Assembly: GCF_920984665.1 (NCBI RefSeq)
Contig: NZ_CAKLBP010000007.1
Span: forward strand, 1-64,000
DNA from: Pedobacter sp. Leaf170
GTDB lineage: Bacteria; Bacteroidota; Bacteroidia; Sphingobacteriales; Sphingobacteriaceae
Length of the DNA: 64,000 bases
Reading direction: 5' to 3'
The position numbers and the translations under genes were made by a program. Below, one piece after another: positions 54,021 to 61,684 of this stretch (position 1 is the stretch's first letter; the number at the start of each line of letters is the position of its first letter). The notes under the pieces were generated by a model. The model worked only from the letters and a program-made list of their open reading frames with translations. It ran no database searches and was not told where the DNA came from.

Positions 54021-55271
54021 TTACTCATTCAATAAACTATCCACTTCCTTATTAAACTCCTCTACAAATGCAGTATAAAATTTTCCGGTTGCTGGTCCGC
54101 TATAACCGGTATGAATCTTGGCAACTTCGCCTTTTTTGTTAATAAATATGGTTGTTGGGAACGATAAGAAGTTATTCAATGCAGGTAAAGATTCAGAAAC
54201 TAATTTTTTATCTGGTTTACCGGCAATCACCTGGTCGTATTTTATATCAAACTTCTCACGGAAACCGTTAATGGCTTTCTTTAAATAAGCAGAATCCAAT
54301 TGCCTTTCGTAATGGATTGCAATTACTTCAACACCTCTCTTCTTGTTTTCTTTGTACCAAGGTGCAATAAACGAGGCTTCATCAACGCAATTTGGGCACC
54401 ATGTTCCGGTAATGGTTATGATAACAGGTTTACCACGGTATTTTTCATCACTCAGTGAAATCTTTTTTCCGTTAACATCCGGAAAAGAAAAGTCTAAAGT
54501 TTTGTAACCCTCTTTCAAATAGGTTAGTTTATAAGCATCAGGTAACTCAGCATTCTGGTTTTGGATACCTGTAAAAGCTATACTTCCTCTTGAATTTATA
54601 GATTCTCCGGTAATTTCTCCCTTTTGAGAAAAACTGCCTTTGTAGTAAGCAGGAGCCATGCCAATAAAACTGGATAAGTAAAAGTTATTACCTTCCACTA
54701 TACCTTCCAGATAACGCGAATCTCCTGTAACTCTTAAAAAAGTTCCTGTTAATTTATTACCAGTTTGCTTAAAAACACCAACAGATTTTTCGTCTTTTCC
54801 GCTTGGATTTTTGAAAGTGACATCATAAGTGCCAGAAAAATTTGCTGCAGGTTTTTCTCCAGAAGTTTTAAACCTAAAATTTTCACCTTTTTTTGCAATT
54901 AAAGCCAGTGGTTTTCCAGAATTATCTTGCTTTCTTAACGTACCTGTTAAAGAATCGCCTGTAAGCTTTACCGCAATTTCGTTATCAAACTGGTCCAATT
55001 TTATCCTTAAAGAATCATCCTTCTGATAGACTTTACCACCATCAAAACGTTCATCGCCATTAAGAAAAACTATTTTGTCATTATTAATTTCGAAGTTAAA
55101 AGGAACTTCTACACCAGGCTTAATTTGAAAAAGACCTCTCCAATTGCCATTTGCAGTTTTGTTAACCGTTGATGATATTTTAGATGGTTGCAGTTTTTTA
55201 TTGGTTTGGGCATGTGCATTTATTATGCTTAAGCCCAAGCTTAATATGATGAGTATTGACTTTATTTTCAT
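54021..55271 (-). CDS. TlpA-type thioredoxin with N-terminal beta domain
   Basis: This 416-residue protein has a signal peptide ending in AHAQ. The N-terminal two-thirds (about 35-240) is a beta-rich lipocalin-like region (GTLRKQDNSGKPLALIAKKGEN, GVFKQTGNKLTGTFLRVTGD). The C-terminal TlpA/AhpC-like domain has GTWCPNCVDEA at about 287-297 (active WCPNC) and LPALNNFLSFPTTIFI with the cis-Pro equivalent. It works as a periplasmic thiol-disulfide reductase. It is divergent from the SAM-riboswitch unit. Confidence 0.88.
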   Translation of the reverse strand: MKIKSILIILSLGLSIINAHAQTNKKLQPSKISSTVNKTANGNWRGLFQIKPGVEVPFNFEINNDKIVFLNGDERFDGGKVYQKDDSLRIKLDQFDNEIAVKLTGDSLTGTLRKQDNSGKPLALIAKKGENFRFKTSGEKPAANFSGTYDVTFKNPSGKDEKSVGVFKQTGNKLTGTFLRVTGDSRYLEGIVEGNNFYLSSFIGMAPAYYKGSFSQKGEITGESINSRGSIAFTGIQNQNAELPDAYKLTYLKEGYKTLDFSFPDVNGKKISLSDEKYRGKPVIITITGTWCPNCVDEASFIAPWYKENKKRGVEVIAIHYERQLDSAYLKKAINGFREKFDIKYDQVIAGKPDKKLVSESLPALNNFLSFPTTIFINKKGEVAKIHTGYSGPATGKFYTAFVEEFNKEVDSLLNE

Positions 55272-55338: not shown

Positions 55339-55371
55339 TTTGTAGACTATTAAAAAAATATACTATCTTTG
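55339..55371 (+). promoter_or_regulatory. Bacteroidota promoter of the SAM-riboswitch unit
   Basis: TTTG (55339-55342) and TATCTTTG (55364-55371) match the -33 and -7 consensus, with a 21-nt spacer. The predicted start near 55378 is just ahead of the riboswitch. Confidence 0.75.
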
Positions 55372-55390
55372 CAGCAGTTATTTTAAAATG

Positions 55391-55506
55391 CTTATCGAGA
55401 AAGGTGGAGGGAATGGCCCTTTGAAACCTTAGCAACCAGCCTTGTTTGGGTATGGTGCTAATTCCAACCCGTAAAGGGGTAGTTAAGTCAGTTTGATGCT
55501 AAGTAA
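55391..55506 (+). ncRNA. SAM-I (S-box) riboswitch aptamer
   Basis: CTTATCGAGAAAGGTGGAGGGA, then GGCCCTTTGAAACC, TTAGCAACC and GGTGCTAATTCC are the conserved P1/P2/K-turn and P3 core sequences of the S-box aptamer, in the standard order. P1 closes with TGATGCTAAG at about 55495-55504 (with a bulge). In this family SAM binding favours a terminator. One is present at 55528. The controlled unit is the transporter pair at 55840-60452. Confidence 0.9.
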
Positions 55507-55527: not shown

Positions 55528-55560
55528 AGCACTTCTGATTTTTCGGAAGTGCTTTTTTTA
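55528..55560 (+). terminator. Riboswitch expression-platform terminator
   Basis: AGCACTTC (55528-55535) pairs with GAAGTGCT (55546-55553) with a 10-nt loop and is followed by TTTTTTTA. It lies 20-25 nt after the aptamer, as expected for SAM-induced premature termination. Confidence 0.85.
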
Positions 55561-55621: not shown

Positions 55622-55714
55622 ATGAAAAAACCTGACGAGCAAAAGTTAAAAATTTCTACAGTTCCTAACTGTAAAACCATCCGAATGTGCATGGAGCTAT
55701 GTTGTAGCTCATAA
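55622..55714 (+). CDS. Candidate 30-residue Cys/Met-rich leader peptide
   Basis: The frame from ATG 55622 to TAA 55714 reads MKKPDEQKLKISTVPN then CKTIRMCMELCCSS. Four Cys and two internal Met fall in the last 14 residues. Its ATG has a strongly A/T-rich upstream sequence, as active Bacteroidota starts do. It lies after the SAM-riboswitch terminator and 125 bp before the SusC gene. A sulfur-amino-acid-rich uORF could act as an attenuation sensor of Cys/Met supply. There is no homology evidence. Confidence 0.45.
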   Translation: MKKPDEQKLKISTVPNCKTIRMCMELCCSS

Positions 55715-55732
55715 AGCTGAGCGCTAAGCTCC
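55693..55732 (+). promoter_or_regulatory. Possible attenuator-type alternative hairpins at the end of the leader frame
   Basis: GAGCTA (55694-55699) can pair with TAGCTC (55705-55710) or GGAGCT (55693-55698) with AGCTCC (55727-55732). These are mutually exclusive stems overlapping the CC codons and the stop codon of the leader frame. This is inferred from sequence complementarity only. Confidence 0.35.
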
Positions 55733-55839
55733 CAAATCTAAGATCAATTTAATGTTACAAAAAAATCGACACAGAGCGATGTGGCATTGCTTTGCCCAAA
55801 AAATCAAAAGTATAATTAATCATTTCTAATTAAGTTAAC

Positions 55840-58800
55840 ATGTATAAAAAAGTAAAGCTATCAGCATTTTTGTTTTTGCTATTGCTATCTACATTTGTTC
55901 GTGCTCAAAATATAGCAGTATCGGGCACTGTTAAAGACGCCACCGGAGAGGTTTTGCCGGGCGTTTCTGTATTTGTAAAAGGAACAAAACAAGCCGTTAT
56001 ATCAAATAATGAGGGTGCATTTACCTTTAACCTAAATAGTAAGGGAACACTCGTTTTTTCTTATATCGGCTATACAACTAAAGAAGTTGAAGTTTCATCA
56101 AGTACATCATCACTATCGGTTGTATTAAGTGATGGAAATAATTCGTTGGATGAAGTTGTAGTTACAGCCTTAGGCATCTCTAAGCAGAAAAAATCTTTAG
56201 GATATGCCGTTCAGGAGCTTAAAGGAGAAAATCTGGCCGAAGCCAAAGAAACAAATTTAGTTAATGCGCTTGCGGGTAAGGTTGCGGGTGTAAGGGTTAC
56301 GAACAGTCAGGGCGATATGGGTTCATCCAGAATTGTAATTCGTGGAGAAACTTCAATTTCTGGTAATAACCAACCGCTTTTTGTTATCGATGGAATACCG
56401 GTTGATAATTCGCAGCTTAATTCTGCCGGAGCAAGAGATTATGCCAACACCATTTCAGATATCAACCCAAATGATATTGAATCGATGAGTGTTTTAAAAG
56501 GTCCAAATGCTGCGGCTTTGTACGGTTCTCGTGCTGCGGCTGGTGTAATCATCATCAAAACAAAATCGGGTAAAACTAAAAAAGGATTAGGCGTAACTTT
56601 TAATTCAAATGCTGTAATAGAAGGTTTGCTAACGCTTCCAAAATATCAAAACGTATTCGGACAAGGTTCTGAAGGTAAGTTTAGTTATGTTGATGGAAAA
56701 GGTGCAGGGATTAATGATGGTGTTGATGAAAGTTGGGGTCCAAGAATGAACGGGCAGCTTATACCTCAGTTTTTTTCTAAAGGCGTGGCCGTTCCATTTG
56801 AGGCACACCCCGATAATGTTCGCGATTTCTTTGAAACAGGTTATGCCTTAACCAATGGTTTATCAATTGAAGATGCTGGCGAAAAATTTGATTATCGCTT
56901 ATCTTACAATAACCTTAAACAGGTTGGTATTGTTCCAAACTCAGGACAAGGGAAAAACTCCTTTGCTTTAAATACAACCTTAAGAATTAATCCAAAATTA
57001 ACTTTAACGGCTAATGCAAATTATAGCAAACTTGGTTCTGATAATTTGCCTGGCACAGGTGGTTCTCGTTCTACAAGTACCATGCTTCAGTTTACCTGGT
57101 TTGGCAGGCAGGTAGATATTAATCGCCTTAAAAATTATTTAGACGAAAACGGAAACACGTTTAACTGGAACAATAGCTACTACAGTAATCCATATTGGGT
57201 GGCTTATGAAAACACGGTTTCTCAAAACAGAAACCGAATTATAGGTAGTATTGGCTTAAATTATAAAATTATTGAAGGCTTAAATTTTAACTTCCGTACC
57301 GGAACAGATTATTATAACGATAGAAGAAAGATTAAAATAGCTTATGGTACAAATGGTACGCCATTCGGTTCTTACACAGAAAGTGCTTTTACCGTTAACG
57401 AAAATAATACTGATGCGACTTTAAATTATAGCAAGCAGCTTAATGATGATTTTAGTGTAGAAGCATTATTAGGTACAAACATTCGCTCACGCTACATTGA
57501 GCAAAACGACCAAAGTGCGCCACGATTGGCTGTAGCAGGTTTATATACGCTTAGTAATTCAAGAGATCCTTTAACGTCTTCTAACAATTATAGCAAGCTA
57601 AAATCATATAGTGGTTATGCTTCTGCGCAAATTGGATTTAGAAATTACTTGTATGCAAATATTACTGCCCGTAACGATTGGTCATCTACACTTCCGGCGC
57701 AAAACAGGTCTTATTTTTATCCTTCATTTAATGGAAGTTTTGTAATTACCGAGGCTTTTGACATTAAAAGCGATGTGCTTGATTACGCCAAACTTAGAGG
57801 TGGTTGGTCTAAAGTTGGTAAAGATGCAGACCCTTACCGCTTAATTAATACCTACGCTTTTGGTGCGCCATTTGGTACTAATCCACAACTTACGGCATCT
57901 ACAACAGATCTAAATCCGGATTTAAAACCTGAAACAACTACTTCATCAGAATTAGGTGCAGAAGCAGTTTTATTTAAAAGACGTATCCGTTTAGATGTAA
58001 GTTTATACAATACCAATAGTTATGATCAAATTTTAAGTGTTGATGTTAGTCCGAGTACAGGATTTAGATCCAAGCTCCTTAATGCCGGAAAAATCAACAA
58101 CAAAGGAATTGAAGTTCAATTAGGCATTACACCTGTTAAAAAAGCTTTTGTTTGGGATGTTGATGTAAATTATGCTGCAAACAGAAGTAAAGTTATCGAA
58201 TTGGATAAAGCCGGCTTATTGCAAAACTATGTTGTGGCAACCAATTCAGCACAAGTTATTGCAGCCGTTGGTCAGCCTTACGGAACACTTTTTGGAAATG
58301 CATTTTTGAGAGATGGCAGTGGCAATATTGTTGTTAATGCAACCGGTGCGCCTCAAACAGATCCAACTAAAAGGGTTTTGGGTAAATATACACCAGATTG
58401 GATTGGTGGAATTTCGAACACTTTTACTTACAAAAATTTAAGTTTAGGCGTTTTAATTGATGCTAGCTTTGGCGGTTCTATTTATAACGGCACTTACGCA
58501 ACCGGAACTTATACTGGTGTTTTGGAATCAACTTTACCTGGTCGTGCTGCCGAATTTGGTGGAATTTCTTATTATTATCCAGGTAATTTAAAAGCAAACG
58601 GAACAGTAAGAGTAACCGCAAATAATACAGCTCCCGCAGATGTTACGGTTTATGATGATGGTATGATCTTCGAAGGTGTAACAGCCGATGGTAAAAAGAA
58701 CGAAAAAATTCTTCCTGCTCAACAGTATTATAAATCTTTCCGTACAATAGATGAGGCAAATATTTTCGATGCTTCTTATGTAAAACTTCGTGAGGTTAGG

Positions 58801-59013
58801 CTAAGTTATAATCTTCCTGCTAAATGGCTTAAACCACTAAGCTTGCAAGGCGTTTCTGTAGCACTTGTTGGTCGTAATCTAGCAATTCTTCATCGTAATG
58901 TTACCGATATCGATCCCGAAGTTGCATTCAACACAGGAAACGGTCAGGGTTTAGAAAGTCTTTCTAATCCAACCACACGTACCTATGGTATAAATCTTAA
59001 CATCAAATTTTAA
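55840..59013 (+). CDS. SusC/RagA-type TonB-linked outer-membrane transporter
   Basis: This 1057-residue protein has a signal peptide ending at VRAQ. A regulatory-like beta domain (VSGTVKDATGEVLPGVSVFVKG) and a SusC plug with GKVAGVRVTNSQGDMGSS, DGIPVDNSQLN and ALYGSRAAAGVIII follow. The barrel ends TYGINLNIKF. It forms the outer-membrane channel of a nutrient importer with the SusD-like protein 5 bp downstream. Upstream lie the riboswitch and leader frame. This suggests a sulfur-related nutrient such as a methionine- or cysteine-containing peptide. That substrate is inferred only from the riboswitch. Confidence 0.95.
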   Translation: MYKKVKLSAFLFLLLLSTFVRAQNIAVSGTVKDATGEVLPGVSVFVKGTKQAVISNNEGAFTFNLNSKGTLVFSYIGYTTKEVEVSSSTSSLSVVLSDGNNSLDEVVVTALGISKQKKSLGYAVQELKGENLAEAKETNLVNALAGKVAGVRVTNSQGDMGSSRIVIRGETSISGNNQPLFVIDGIPVDNSQLNSAGARDYANTISDINPNDIESMSVLKGPNAAALYGSRAAAGVIIIKTKSGKTKKGLGVTFNSNAVIEGLLTLPKYQNVFGQGSEGKFSYVDGKGAGINDGVDESWGPRMNGQLIPQFFSKGVAVPFEAHPDNVRDFFETGYALTNGLSIEDAGEKFDYRLSYNNLKQVGIVPNSGQGKNSFALNTTLRINPKLTLTANANYSKLGSDNLPGTGGSRSTSTMLQFTWFGRQVDINRLKNYLDENGNTFNWNNSYYSNPYWVAYENTVSQNRNRIIGSIGLNYKIIEGLNFNFRTGTDYYNDRRKIKIAYGTNGTPFGSYTESAFTVNENNTDATLNYSKQLNDDFSVEALLGTNIRSRYIEQNDQSAPRLAVAGLYTLSNSRDPLTSSNNYSKLKSYSGYASAQIGFRNYLYANITARNDWSSTLPAQNRSYFYPSFNGSFVITEAFDIKSDVLDYAKLRGGWSKVGKDADPYRLINTYAFGAPFGTNPQLTASTTDLNPDLKPETTTSSELGAEAVLFKRRIRLDVSLYNTNSYDQILSVDVSPSTGFRSKLLNAGKINNKGIEVQLGITPVKKAFVWDVDVNYAANRSKVIELDKAGLLQNYVVATNSAQVIAAVGQPYGTLFGNAFLRDGSGNIVVNATGAPQTDPTKRVLGKYTPDWIGGISNTFTYKNLSLGVLIDASFGGSIYNGTYATGTYTGVLESTLPGRAAEFGGISYYYPGNLKANGTVRVTANNTAPADVTVYDDGMIFEGVTADGKKNEKILPAQQYYKSFRTIDEANIFDASYVKLREVRLSYNLPAKWLKPLSLQGVSVALVGRNLAILHRNVTDIDPEVAFNTGNGQGLESLSNPTTRTYGINLNIKF

Positions 59014-59018
59014 ATCCC

Positions 59019-60452
59019 ATGAAAAAGAATATAATATACAGCTTTTTATCTTTATCGCTTTTGCTGGCTTCATGTGCCAAAGAATTGGATGAAGTGAACA
59101 TTAATCCAAATGCTACAGAAAATGCACAGCCCGACTATTTGTTAACGGCAGCCATTAAAAACACAACCGATGCCTATTGGGGCACAACGAATAACATGAA
59201 CTCCAGTTTGCTGTTTGCTCAACATTGGGCAAAAGTTCAGTACACTGAAGAGGATAGGTTTATTTACTCAAATAGCAGTTTCACATCATTATGGTCTACG
59301 CTTTATTCGCAAAGTATAACTGGTTTTAATAAAATTATCGAAATTGGGAATGCAACAAGTAATTCAAACTATAAAGGTGTTGCACTTACCTTACGTTCCT
59401 GGTCATTTTTGTTGTTAACTGATGCTTATGGCGATATTCCTTATAGTCAGGCAGGGAAATTAAACGAATACATCACTCCGGTTTACGATAAACAAAAAGA
59501 TGTTTATTTTGGCTTGCTGGATGATTTAAAGGCGGCGAAAACTGCTTTAGACCCGAATGGAAAGGCAATTGCAGGCGATATTATTTATAGTGGCAACATC
59601 ACAAAGTGGAAGAAGTTTGCCAACTCGCTAAGGTTAAGAATCGCTTTGCGCATTGCGGATAAAGAGCCAGCAAAAGCTAAACAGGTTTTAGATGAGATTA
59701 AAGCCGATGGCGATTTATTTATCAGTGATAATACAGATATCGCACAGCTGATTTACCAGATTTCTCCGCAACAAAATCCGGTTAGTGCGCAGTTTGATAC
59801 TCGTGATGATTACCGCATCAGCAAAACAATTGTGGATAAATTATTTGCCTTGAATGATCCACGTTTATCTGTCTATGCAAGTAAAACACAAACGGCTACA
59901 TCTCAGGAGTATGTTGGTTTGCCAAATGGATTAACAAATTCTGAGGCAAGTAATCTTGGCTTTGCCAGAACATCAAAACCTGGAGCTTATTTTCTTGCAC
60001 CGCAATCTCCGGCAGTTATTTTCAGTTATGCTGAATTACTTTTTGATAGAGCGGAAGCTGCTGCAAGGGGTTTAACGTCAGAAAATGCTGCTGATTTGTA
60101 CAAGCAAGGTATTACTGTCTCATTAAAACAATTTTCTGTTGGCGATGCTGCGGTTGCAACTTACCTGGCACAGGTTACTGTACAATATGATGCATCTAAT
60201 TACAAAAAATCAATTGGCGAACAAAAGTGGATTGCTTTATTTGGACAAGGATTGGAAGCGTGGGCAGAACGTAGAAGGTTAGATTATCCTCAATTAACGG
60301 CATCTGTGAATACGGTGCTTAACGGACAAATACCGGTTCGTTTCATATATCCTGGCACAGAGCAATCTTTAAACGGACAAAGCTACAGGAATGCAGTCGC
60401 AAGTCAGGGAGCAGATTTGCTAACTACAAAATTGTGGTTTGATGCGAATTAG
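59019..60452 (+). CDS. SusD-like nutrient-binding lipoprotein
   Basis: This 477-residue lipoprotein has lipobox LASC (Cys19) followed by AKELDEVNINPN, the start pattern of SusD group 2 proteins. Helical repeats and SWSFLLLTDAYGDIPYSQAG are present. Partner of the SusC at 55840, with only a 5-bp gap. It lacks carbohydrate-active neighbours, so its substrate may not be a glycan. Terminated by the hairpin at 60478. Confidence 0.92.
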   Translation: MKKNIIYSFLSLSLLLASCAKELDEVNINPNATENAQPDYLLTAAIKNTTDAYWGTTNNMNSSLLFAQHWAKVQYTEEDRFIYSNSSFTSLWSTLYSQSITGFNKIIEIGNATSNSNYKGVALTLRSWSFLLLTDAYGDIPYSQAGKLNEYITPVYDKQKDVYFGLLDDLKAAKTALDPNGKAIAGDIIYSGNITKWKKFANSLRLRIALRIADKEPAKAKQVLDEIKADGDLFISDNTDIAQLIYQISPQQNPVSAQFDTRDDYRISKTIVDKLFALNDPRLSVYASKTQTATSQEYVGLPNGLTNSEASNLGFARTSKPGAYFLAPQSPAVIFSYAELLFDRAEAAARGLTSENAADLYKQGITVSLKQFSVGDAAVATYLAQVTVQYDASNYKKSIGEQKWIALFGQGLEAWAERRRLDYPQLTASVNTVLNGQIPVRFIYPGTEQSLNGQSYRNAVASQGADLLTTKLWFDAN

Positions 60453-60540: not shown

Positions 60541-61684
60541 TTTTCAAGGGGGGGTATTCTAAATATTAGGCATGTTTTTGTCTTTACCAGACAGGCTTTT
60601 TCTTTTGTCTTGATACAAAAGAAACAAAAAATCAAGGCTGGCATCTTTTGCTGCATAAAGCGAAGAAAATACGGATAGCGGACATGTGAGGTCCCGAAGA
60701 AAAATCGGGACTGCAAATCTCCTTGGTTAATCGTAGAATGAAATAAGTACAAGTATTTTCTTGCTTTCTGCTTCCAAAATCTGCTAGGCCGGATAGCATG
60801 GAGCGAATGCTATAACGCAATTTCGTCATTGCCTGCCTTCGGTAGGTAAGCTAGGCTGATTTTTCATCAGCCGTGGCAATCTCTTTTTAATGTTTAAAAA
60901 TGTTTAGGAAAAACTTCCTTTTCTGATTTCAAGGGGATTTTATTCTAAATAGTAGGCATGTTTTTGTCTTCGCCAGACTGGCTTTTTCTTTTGTCTTGAT
61001 ACAAAAGAAACAAAAAATCAAGGCTGGCATCTTTTGGCGCATAAAGCGAAGAAAATACGGATAGCGGACATTTGAGGTCCCGAAGAAAAATCGGGACTGC
61101 AAATTTCCTTGGTTAATCGGAGAATGAAATAAGTACAAGTATTTTCTTGCTTTCTGCTTCCAAAATCTGCTAGGCCGGATTGCATGGAGCGAATGCAAAC
61201 TCCTGATTTCGTCATTGCTGCGATGGGTAGGTTAGCCTAATTTTTCATCAGCCGTGGTAATCTCTTTTTAATGTTTAAAAACGTTTAGGAAAAATTTCCT
61301 TTTCTGATTTCAAGGGGATTTTATTCTAAATATTAGGCATGTTTTTGTCTTTGCCAGACAGGCTTTTTCTTTTGTCTTGATACAAAAGAAACAAAAAATC
61401 AAGGCTGGCATCTTTTGTCGCATAAAGCGAAGAAAATACGGATAGCGGACATTTGAGGTCCCGAAGAAAAATCGGGACTGCAAATCTCCTTGGTTAATTG
61501 TGGAATGAAATTAGTGCAAGTATTTTCTTGCTTTCTGCTTCCAAAATCTGCTAGGCCGGATAGCATGGAGCGAATTCTAACTCCCGATTTCGTCATTGCA
61601 TGCCTTCGGTAGGTAAGCGAGGCTGATTTTTCATCAGCCGTGGTAATCTCTTTTAATGTTTAAAAAGGTTAAGGAAAAATTGCA
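60541..61684. repeat. Three tandem copies of a ~381-bp non-coding repeat
   Basis: Copies start at about 60541, 60927 and 61308 (spacing 386 and 381 bp) and are nearly identical. Each holds four conserved palindromes: TTTTGT-n6-ACAAAA, CCCGA-n7-TCGGG, a CTTCGG(T) patch near a GTCATTGC segment, and GGCTGAT-n5-ATCAGCC in copies 1 and 3. The third copy decays at its end. Modules such as GGATAGCGGAC recur near 6330. The six-frame open frames inside are incidental. The repeat separates the SusC/D unit from a GH43 gene. Confidence 0.9.

Follow-up and report, generated by a model that had tools for sequence, protein, structure and literature searches.

The window, i.e., the whole stretch of 64,000 nt of Pedobacter sp. 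Leaf170 DNA that was analyzed, carries a susC gene with a long leader, in which a SAM-I riboswitch aptamer is followed by a short upstream open reading frame (uORF). The locus has the following features:

54021–55271, minus strand: AhpC/TSA redoxin-domain protein, divergent from the leader (PF00578, 51.2 bits)
55364–55371, plus strand: candidate leader promoter TATCTTTG, from direct reading; matches the Bacteroidota −7 box, activity inferred
55389–55489, plus strand: SAM-I (S-box) riboswitch aptamer (RF00162, 79.6 bits, E 4.3e-17)
55528–55559, plus strand: T1, hairpin AGCACTTC/GAAGTGCT followed by T7, from direct reading; putative expression platform of the riboswitch (intrinsic terminator)
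55622–55714, plus strand: uORF / leader peptide MKKPDEQKLKISTVPNCKTIRMCMELCCSS (ORF reading; orthologues in relatives)
55682–55705, plus strand: regulatory codon stretch R-M-C-M-E-L-C-C (aligned peptides; Cys/Met tails of relatives)
55693–55732, plus strand: stem B, GGAGCT 55693–55698 with AGCTCC 55727–55732 (MFE fold)
55694–55710, plus strand: stem A over the last codons, GAGCTA 55694–55699 with TAGCTC 55705–55710 (letters checked)
55765–55796, plus strand: third leader element, a short hairpin then GTGGCATTGCTTTGCC (relatives keep both its sequence and its position)
55840–59013, plus strand: susC, TonB-linked outer-membrane transporter, presumed regulated gene (TIGR04056, 644.9 bits)
59019–60452, plus strand: susD-like_2 lipoprotein, partner of susC (PF12771, 379.3 bits)

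The −7 box consensus TAnnTTTG for Bacteroidota is given in the accessible part of PMC9723704. About 250 nt separate the candidate promoter from the uORF start, and a leaderless start is not given. The aptamer was the sole Rfam match in the window at gathering, and its score exceeded the RF00162 gathering value of 44.4 bits. Judged by its sequence alone it is a fully canonical SAM-I aptamer; SAM binding and switching are inferred. T1 was not reported by a consensus terminator scan because its loop exceeds the 8-base limit of that scan. Of the 49 leaders read in the genus, 37 matched a strict T1 pattern, and the remainder looked similar or weaker.

The uORF comprises 30 codons with an ATG start and a TAA stop at 55712–55714. 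It starts 132 nt 3' of the aptamer, ends 125 nt 5' of susC, and its peptide has the C-terminal end CKTIRMCMELCCSS. The Cys/Met-rich frame of 30 codons that the initial annotation had placed between a riboswitch and a transporter is real.

Between susD and a GH43 gene we also observed a 381-bp unit in 2.9 copies (60555–61681), which yields three near-identical 65-codon ORFs on the minus strand. These units are probably a dispersed repeat rather than genes.

Conservation of the uORF and its hairpin in Pedobacter

A search of 301 genomes of the family with the single peptide gave one further strong match (62% identity, E 7.9e-6), in the nearest relative L002, which was assigned to Pedobacter aquatilis by its SusC match (L138, 95% SusC identity). 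The uORF of L002 is also located 3' of a SAM aptamer and 5' of susC, its peptide MEKSNEQKSKLSAFLKSCKTIRMCKALCCSA retains CKTIRMCxxLCCS, and one in-frame three-base insertion was the difference from the uORF of the window. Of the family matches with E > 0.05, the two that were inspected (L003, L004) looked like chance. An exact degenerate pattern matched the window only among 395 Bacteroidota genomes, as the peptide varies too much to be caught by a fixed pattern, and tblastn of the uORF against plasmids gave no match. A profile of the uORF found one copy per genome in 30 of the 301 family genomes (E < 4e-5), all of this genus; five weaker matches outside the genus (E 0.003–0.019) were not inspected individually. 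The genome of the window has no second credible copy, and none of the three inspected among the four other profile matches was leader-like.

The leader DNA had a match in 74 of 145 genomes of the genus. We read 49 leaders (L035–L083), namely 30 search loci including the window and 19 that were fetched additionally. All 49 had the aptamer core motif and 47 a uORF in the same place, which met the test for conservation of position and frame; the count includes related genomes that are not independent. The uORF was complete with the RM/LM motif in 42 of the 49, and a frame broken in relatives, which had been named beforehand as the outcome that would refute the idea, was mostly not found. The exceptions were an interruption by the contig end (L044), loss of the RM motif with CysCys kept, reading MKKSNEPNSIYCCKSAIH (L047/L048), truncation by TAG just 5' of the Cys codon (L051/L058), and absence of the uORF with aptamer and susC kept (L059/L065).

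The distance from the ATG to CGAATG was always a multiple of three (54–66 nt) across the length variants. In 36 aligned peptides M1 and M22 were invariant, and K3 and R21 were kept in at least 90%. The 25 uORFs of 24 codons end in F-R-M-[RC]-x-[PSAV]-C, with the terminal Cys in 25/25, and showed a pN/pS of 0.64 in frame versus 0.89 and 1.09 in the shifted frames, suggesting mild coding selection. The lack of in-frame stops across the compared uORFs is given by construction (circular). A pairing of CGAATG with a downstream CATTC as an antiterminator in Pedobacter was considered and dropped, as the partner was not kept in all leaders.

Both stems over the last codons are present in the window, stem B with an inner pairing of GCTCA (55707–55711) with TGAGC (55718–55722), and they are mutually exclusive, as had been proposed. 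In the alignment with L002 one pair of stem A changes from A-U to C-G on both sides. However, the stems were not more stable than shuffled sequence (MFE −15.6, z −1.29, p 0.12, 300 dinucleotide shuffles), and there is no U-run 3' of the stems in the window. The frame of the window exceeds chance only via its relatives.

A hairpin CTGTTA..TTAACRGG includes the last codons and the stop in 28 of the 49 Pedobacter leaders, and in 24 of these 28 at least 4 T occur within the next 8 nt. An alignment of 27 rows of the Pedobacter group gave the hairpin as CCTGTTAAAAT..ATTTTAACAGG with 11 pairs. Unrelated sequences fill the same position in other leaders, e.g., GGTATTTG..AAATACC. The mean z of the hairpin was −2.24 over 20 representatives; the value of the window itself was weak. 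Outside Pedobacter, the local hairpin was no more stable than shuffled sequences (mean z −0.27, 37 leaders).

The third leader element lies 31–50 nt 5' of the susC ATG in the 44 of 48 leaders in which its anchor could be located, and leaders without the uORF have it as well. Of the 48 leaders extending to susC, nearly all show the hairpin and then GGMATTGYTTTGCC some 40 nt 5' of the gene, and a relative has a similar copy 5' of a different SusC-like gene (L105). When the element was aligned with MAFFT, RNAalifold returned no pairs, probably because of a register problem; the hairpin was seen in single folds only. The element could be a site for an RNA-binding protein or an sRNA.

Cys- and Met-rich uORFs upstream of susC in other genera

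We also analyzed the regions upstream of 80 named SusC orthologues, the best 80 of 131 (61–95% identity), from Pedobacter, Mucilaginibacter, Segetibacter, Niastella, Filimonas, Sediminibacterium, Hufsiella and other Chitinophagaceae or poorly classified MAGs. With at least 3 Cys among the last 11 residues as criterion, a Cys-rich uORF was present within 450 nt upstream of susC in 45 of these best 80, compared to 2 of 80 on the antisense strand; the 35 below the Cys threshold were mostly from Pedobacter. Examples of the tails are YSNMQSMRCCC, LLSPRMCGQCCCCC, MCMHMRSMRCCCC and CATNHSCCCCCC, each directly followed by the stop. At 35 loci with (TGY)3+ tracts and a stop, an ATG opened the Cys frame in 34, versus 5 and 5 for the other two frames.

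For composition we used the 37 peptides outside the MEKT/MKKT type, in which the Cys enrichment results from the selection and Met was unselected. Met made up 52 of 407 tail residues (12.8%) versus 18 of 926 body residues (1.9%), and 29 of the 37 tails contained it. Clustering of 41 peptides gave 31 clusters, and Met occurred in the tail in 23 of these; therefore no single peptide sequence is inherited. The regulatory codons are clustered near the end of the uORF, in the window itself as RMCMELCC. A Cys run beside the stop, as in mycobacterial poly-Cys sORFs, occurs in the relatives and in the metY leaders described below and is reduced in the window. Most RMRxPC-type peptides of Pedobacter carry one or two Cys codons, which is weak for a classical codon-run attenuator; a reduced form is the best reading of their RM[CR]xxC end.

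A SAM aptamer on the same strand was found upstream in 62 of the best 80 of 131 loci, 43 by a core-motif regular expression and 19 by Rfam among 36 of the remaining 37 (L216 was not scanned); in L205 the aptamer was on the opposite strand. Most of the 19 aptamers seen by Rfam only, mainly from Mucilaginibacter, lie about 1 kb or more upstream, and an ORF of 182–188 codons intervenes in all three such loci that were inspected. These three (L185, L187, L174, all Mucilaginibacter) have the order SAM riboswitch, ORF, poly-Cys uORF and susC. The ORF is redoxin-like by eye only; the redoxin-domain gene of the window is divergent from the leader. The two sensors can occur apart, since some Segetibacter and Chitinophagaceae loci with a Cys uORF lack a SAM match. 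Among 20 further weak SAM matches that were fetched from the leader-DNA search of the genus, 4 precede a SusC-like gene with a Cys-rich uORF and 14 an ORF of about 190–214 codons without one; in 2 no aptamer was found by the regular expression.

As a control we inspected 30 other susC genes of four genomes. Two had a Cys-rich uORF, ending in SMALMPVCACTCCCCC and PKACMCSCCK before the stop; these were taken as further members and not as noise, and no Rfam SAM match was present at these two genes. In two Mucilaginibacter loci (L257/L262) a Cys-rich uORF near a TAnnTTTG-like box precedes a second type of SusC; each is followed by a CCGGCAAGG/CCTTGCCGG hairpin, and there is no SAM riboswitch. The generic pattern of four TGY codons and a stop is common across 247 genomes. 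Only 3 of 30 such loci examined were opened by an ATG, all 3 overlapping other genes, and poly-Cys alone is therefore no signature.

Leaders of metY and the class-wide survey

The genome of the window has three SAM riboswitches. One precedes a gene that we take to be metY (O-acetylhomoserine sulfhydrylase) from its N-terminal sequence and is followed by the uORF MKTLNLQSQSEKITKLKKLELSSISLMCFDMQATTCMCCCIQ, with the tail SLMCFDMQATTCMCCCIQ, ending in CMCCCIQ, before the stop. No such uORF follows the SAM riboswitch of the gene which, likewise by our own reading, is presumably metH. The metY uORF was found in 38 of the 301 family genomes, all Pedobacter. At the 30 of these 38 loci that were read, a SAM motif was present upstream in 30/30 and the N-terminus of metY lay 124–160 nt 3' of the uORF; Rfam confirmed SAM in 20/20 scanned loci. 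In the forward-strand loci among these 20, the aptamer ends 6–9 nt before the ATG of the uORF.

The C-M-C-C-C positions are each kept in 27 or 28 of the 28 metY uORFs of 42 codons. The metY leaders also share three conserved stems, one of which covers the Cys/Met codons; compensatory changes were seen in one of the other two. The pN/pS was 0.70 in frame versus 0.92 and 0.74 in the shifted frames; as 0.74 is near 0.70, protein-level selection alone is not strong evidence.

Between the uORF and metY there is also a highly conserved structure CTTCC..GGAAGGTCCCG..CGGGATACGCCC, about 10–70 nt after the uORF stop (L298–L327), with compensatory changes in its second stem. It had no Rfam match at gathering in the 20 metY loci scanned. 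Flavo-1 RNA (RF01705) occurs near metY in some Pedobacter genomes (L303, L317, L320).

In 70 genomes sampled across the class, RF00162 matched 70 times, in 52 of the genomes; 68 of these SAM leaders were examined and two below the cut-off left out. Nine of the 68 had a uORF with three or more Cys among its final 12 residues, compared to 0/68 on the antisense strand. By gene, with classes assigned by sequence motifs of our choice, these were 6/7 for metY, 0/43 for metH, 0/4 for metB-like genes and 3/14 for others (metY versus the rest, Fisher p 5e-6). The three others were this susC, a TonB/SusC-like gene and a gene that we assume to be ATP-grasp-like. The six positive metY leaders have the ATG of their uORF at −1 to +13 nt relative to the end of the aptamer, so that translation of the leader peptide may depend on SAM. 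In metY leaders a terminator would not fit between aptamer and uORF, and SAM may therefore act on uORF initiation.

Proposed mechanism, alternatives and known systems

We consider it probable that the frame encodes a leader peptide through which the availability of charged tRNA-Cys (and tRNA-Met) is sensed, and that this peptide is stacked with the SAM riboswitch; the functional steps are inferred. What can be read from the DNA itself is the aptamer, the frame and its conservation, the clustering of Cys and Met codons, the hairpin over the last codons in Pedobacter and the recurrence before metY. The earlier proposal of a Cys/Met leader peptide after a SAM riboswitch in Bacteroidota gained strong comparative support from the susC leaders of several genera and from metY, an unrelated gene of the same genome.

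RNA polymerase would meet the SAM riboswitch first, and at high SAM it would stop at T1. At low SAM it would pass T1, and a ribosome would translate the uORF. Under scarcity of Cys (or Met) the ribosome would stall on the terminal Met/Cys codons and cover the 5' arm of the hairpin at the last codons and stop, and susCD would be expressed. If both amino acids were plentiful, the ribosome would terminate and leave, the hairpin would form and expression would be lowered. The lowering step may be an intrinsic terminator in many Pedobacter and elsewhere perhaps involve Rho or translational coupling; since the hairpin was not significant outside Pedobacter, the step controlled may differ there. Translation, stalling, tRNA sensing and the step controlled are inferences, and so is the direction of the response, which was deduced from the logic of the targets.

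A different source of stalling is conceivable: the nascent R-M-[CR]-x-x-C-stop might arrest the ribosome through its sequence as such or through binding of a small molecule, and not through tRNA shortage. This would fit the invariant Met, the near-invariant Arg and the terminal Cys at fixed spacing before the stop, the Arg codon CGA in 24/25 of the 24-codon group, and the many peptides with a single Cys codon. We regard it as unlikely, however, as the relatives have plain runs of 3–6 Cys with variable flanks instead of the motif and the metY leaders use a different sequence, so that a composition is kept and not one motif. The unrelated bodies of the peptides between genera (41 peptides, 31 clusters) and the recurrence of this composition before metY, which encodes a cytosolic enzyme, also leave the export or binding peptide of the initial annotation unsupported. 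A micropeptide that serves the transporter and is secreted or binds metals or thiols would agree with the Cys-rich sequence, the adjoining transporter and the nearby redoxin-domain gene, but no signal sequence was visible by eye, profile searches gave no Pfam or NCBIfam match for the uORF peptide, and we see hardly any chance for it.

That only the RNA structure matters and the open frame is a by-product also appears very unlikely. Some third codon positions vary unusually little, the hairpin fixes the last codons, and the pN/pS is mild, all of which would suit a structure without translation. It would not explain why an ATG opens the Cys frame in nearly all Cys tracts and seldom the other frames, nor why Met is enriched in the tails, and the hairpin lacks significance outside Pedobacter. 

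A leader peptide that senses tRNA charging is retained as the probable reading. A wider view, of a Bacteroidota sulfur-amino-acid regulon whose composite leaders use a SAM-I aptamer to gate a Met/Cys leader peptide, is put forward only tentatively and may well not hold. In such a two-input riboswitch/ribosome gate SAM would decide whether the uORF is translated and tRNA charging how far the ribosome gets, and the targets would be one biosynthetic enzyme and outer-membrane importers.

Poly-cysteine leader peptides of actinobacterial cys operons were reportedly treated by Canestrari in 2020. The portion of PMC1262725 at hand lists such peptides as known or predicted, and the leaders studied here share with them the short uORF, the run of Cys codons near the stop and the frequent lack of a clear conserved terminator. 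They differ in phylum, in the unrelated peptide, in the targets (susCD and metY, not cys operons), in the Met codons mixed in, in the SAM riboswitch upstream and in the uORF of the window not being leaderless. In the uORFC-8-2 motif of Rhodobacterales cysS, as far as the extract of PMC8632094 goes, Cys codons lie in the first stem, followed by an intrinsic terminator with a U-run. The Pedobacter hairpin follows the same logic with Cys codons inside the stem; the target there is cysS, not susC as downstream of the uORF in the window, the Cys codons are two in tandem, and the extract names no riboswitch.

Tandem attenuators with ATP and proline signals are described for Salmonella mgtCBR in the available sections of PMC3641672. 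These also place two sensors in series in one leader, one of them a codon-rich leader ORF answering tRNA charging, but those sections report no SAM riboswitch aptamer. Contiguous riboswitches include T-box with SAM for joint sensing of metabolite and tRNA, according to the accessible text of PMC12452182; in the window the second sensor is instead a translated leader peptide. In the same phylum, leader-peptide attenuation was proposed in Flavobacterium psychrophilum, and sORF leaders, i.e., leader ORFs in 5' UTRs, were described in Bacteroides thetaiotaomicron, although the available parts of these sources name neither a Cys/Met leader nor a pairing with a riboswitch (PMC9723704, PMC7366714). 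The parts are already known, and none of the open-licence papers found in our searches describes their combination in Bacteroidota, with a Cys/Met leader peptide downstream of a SAM riboswitch.

The uORFs kept before susC and metY point to sulfur amino acids being checked twice before gene activation. If this is true, one RNA would integrate SAM plus the charging of two tRNAs, and Cys leader peptides would reach another phylum. It would also explain why an extra leader follows the SAM riboswitches of metY and this susC and none that of metH, and would provide a first handle on the substrate imported by SusCD, for which an organic sulfur source is the obvious guess.
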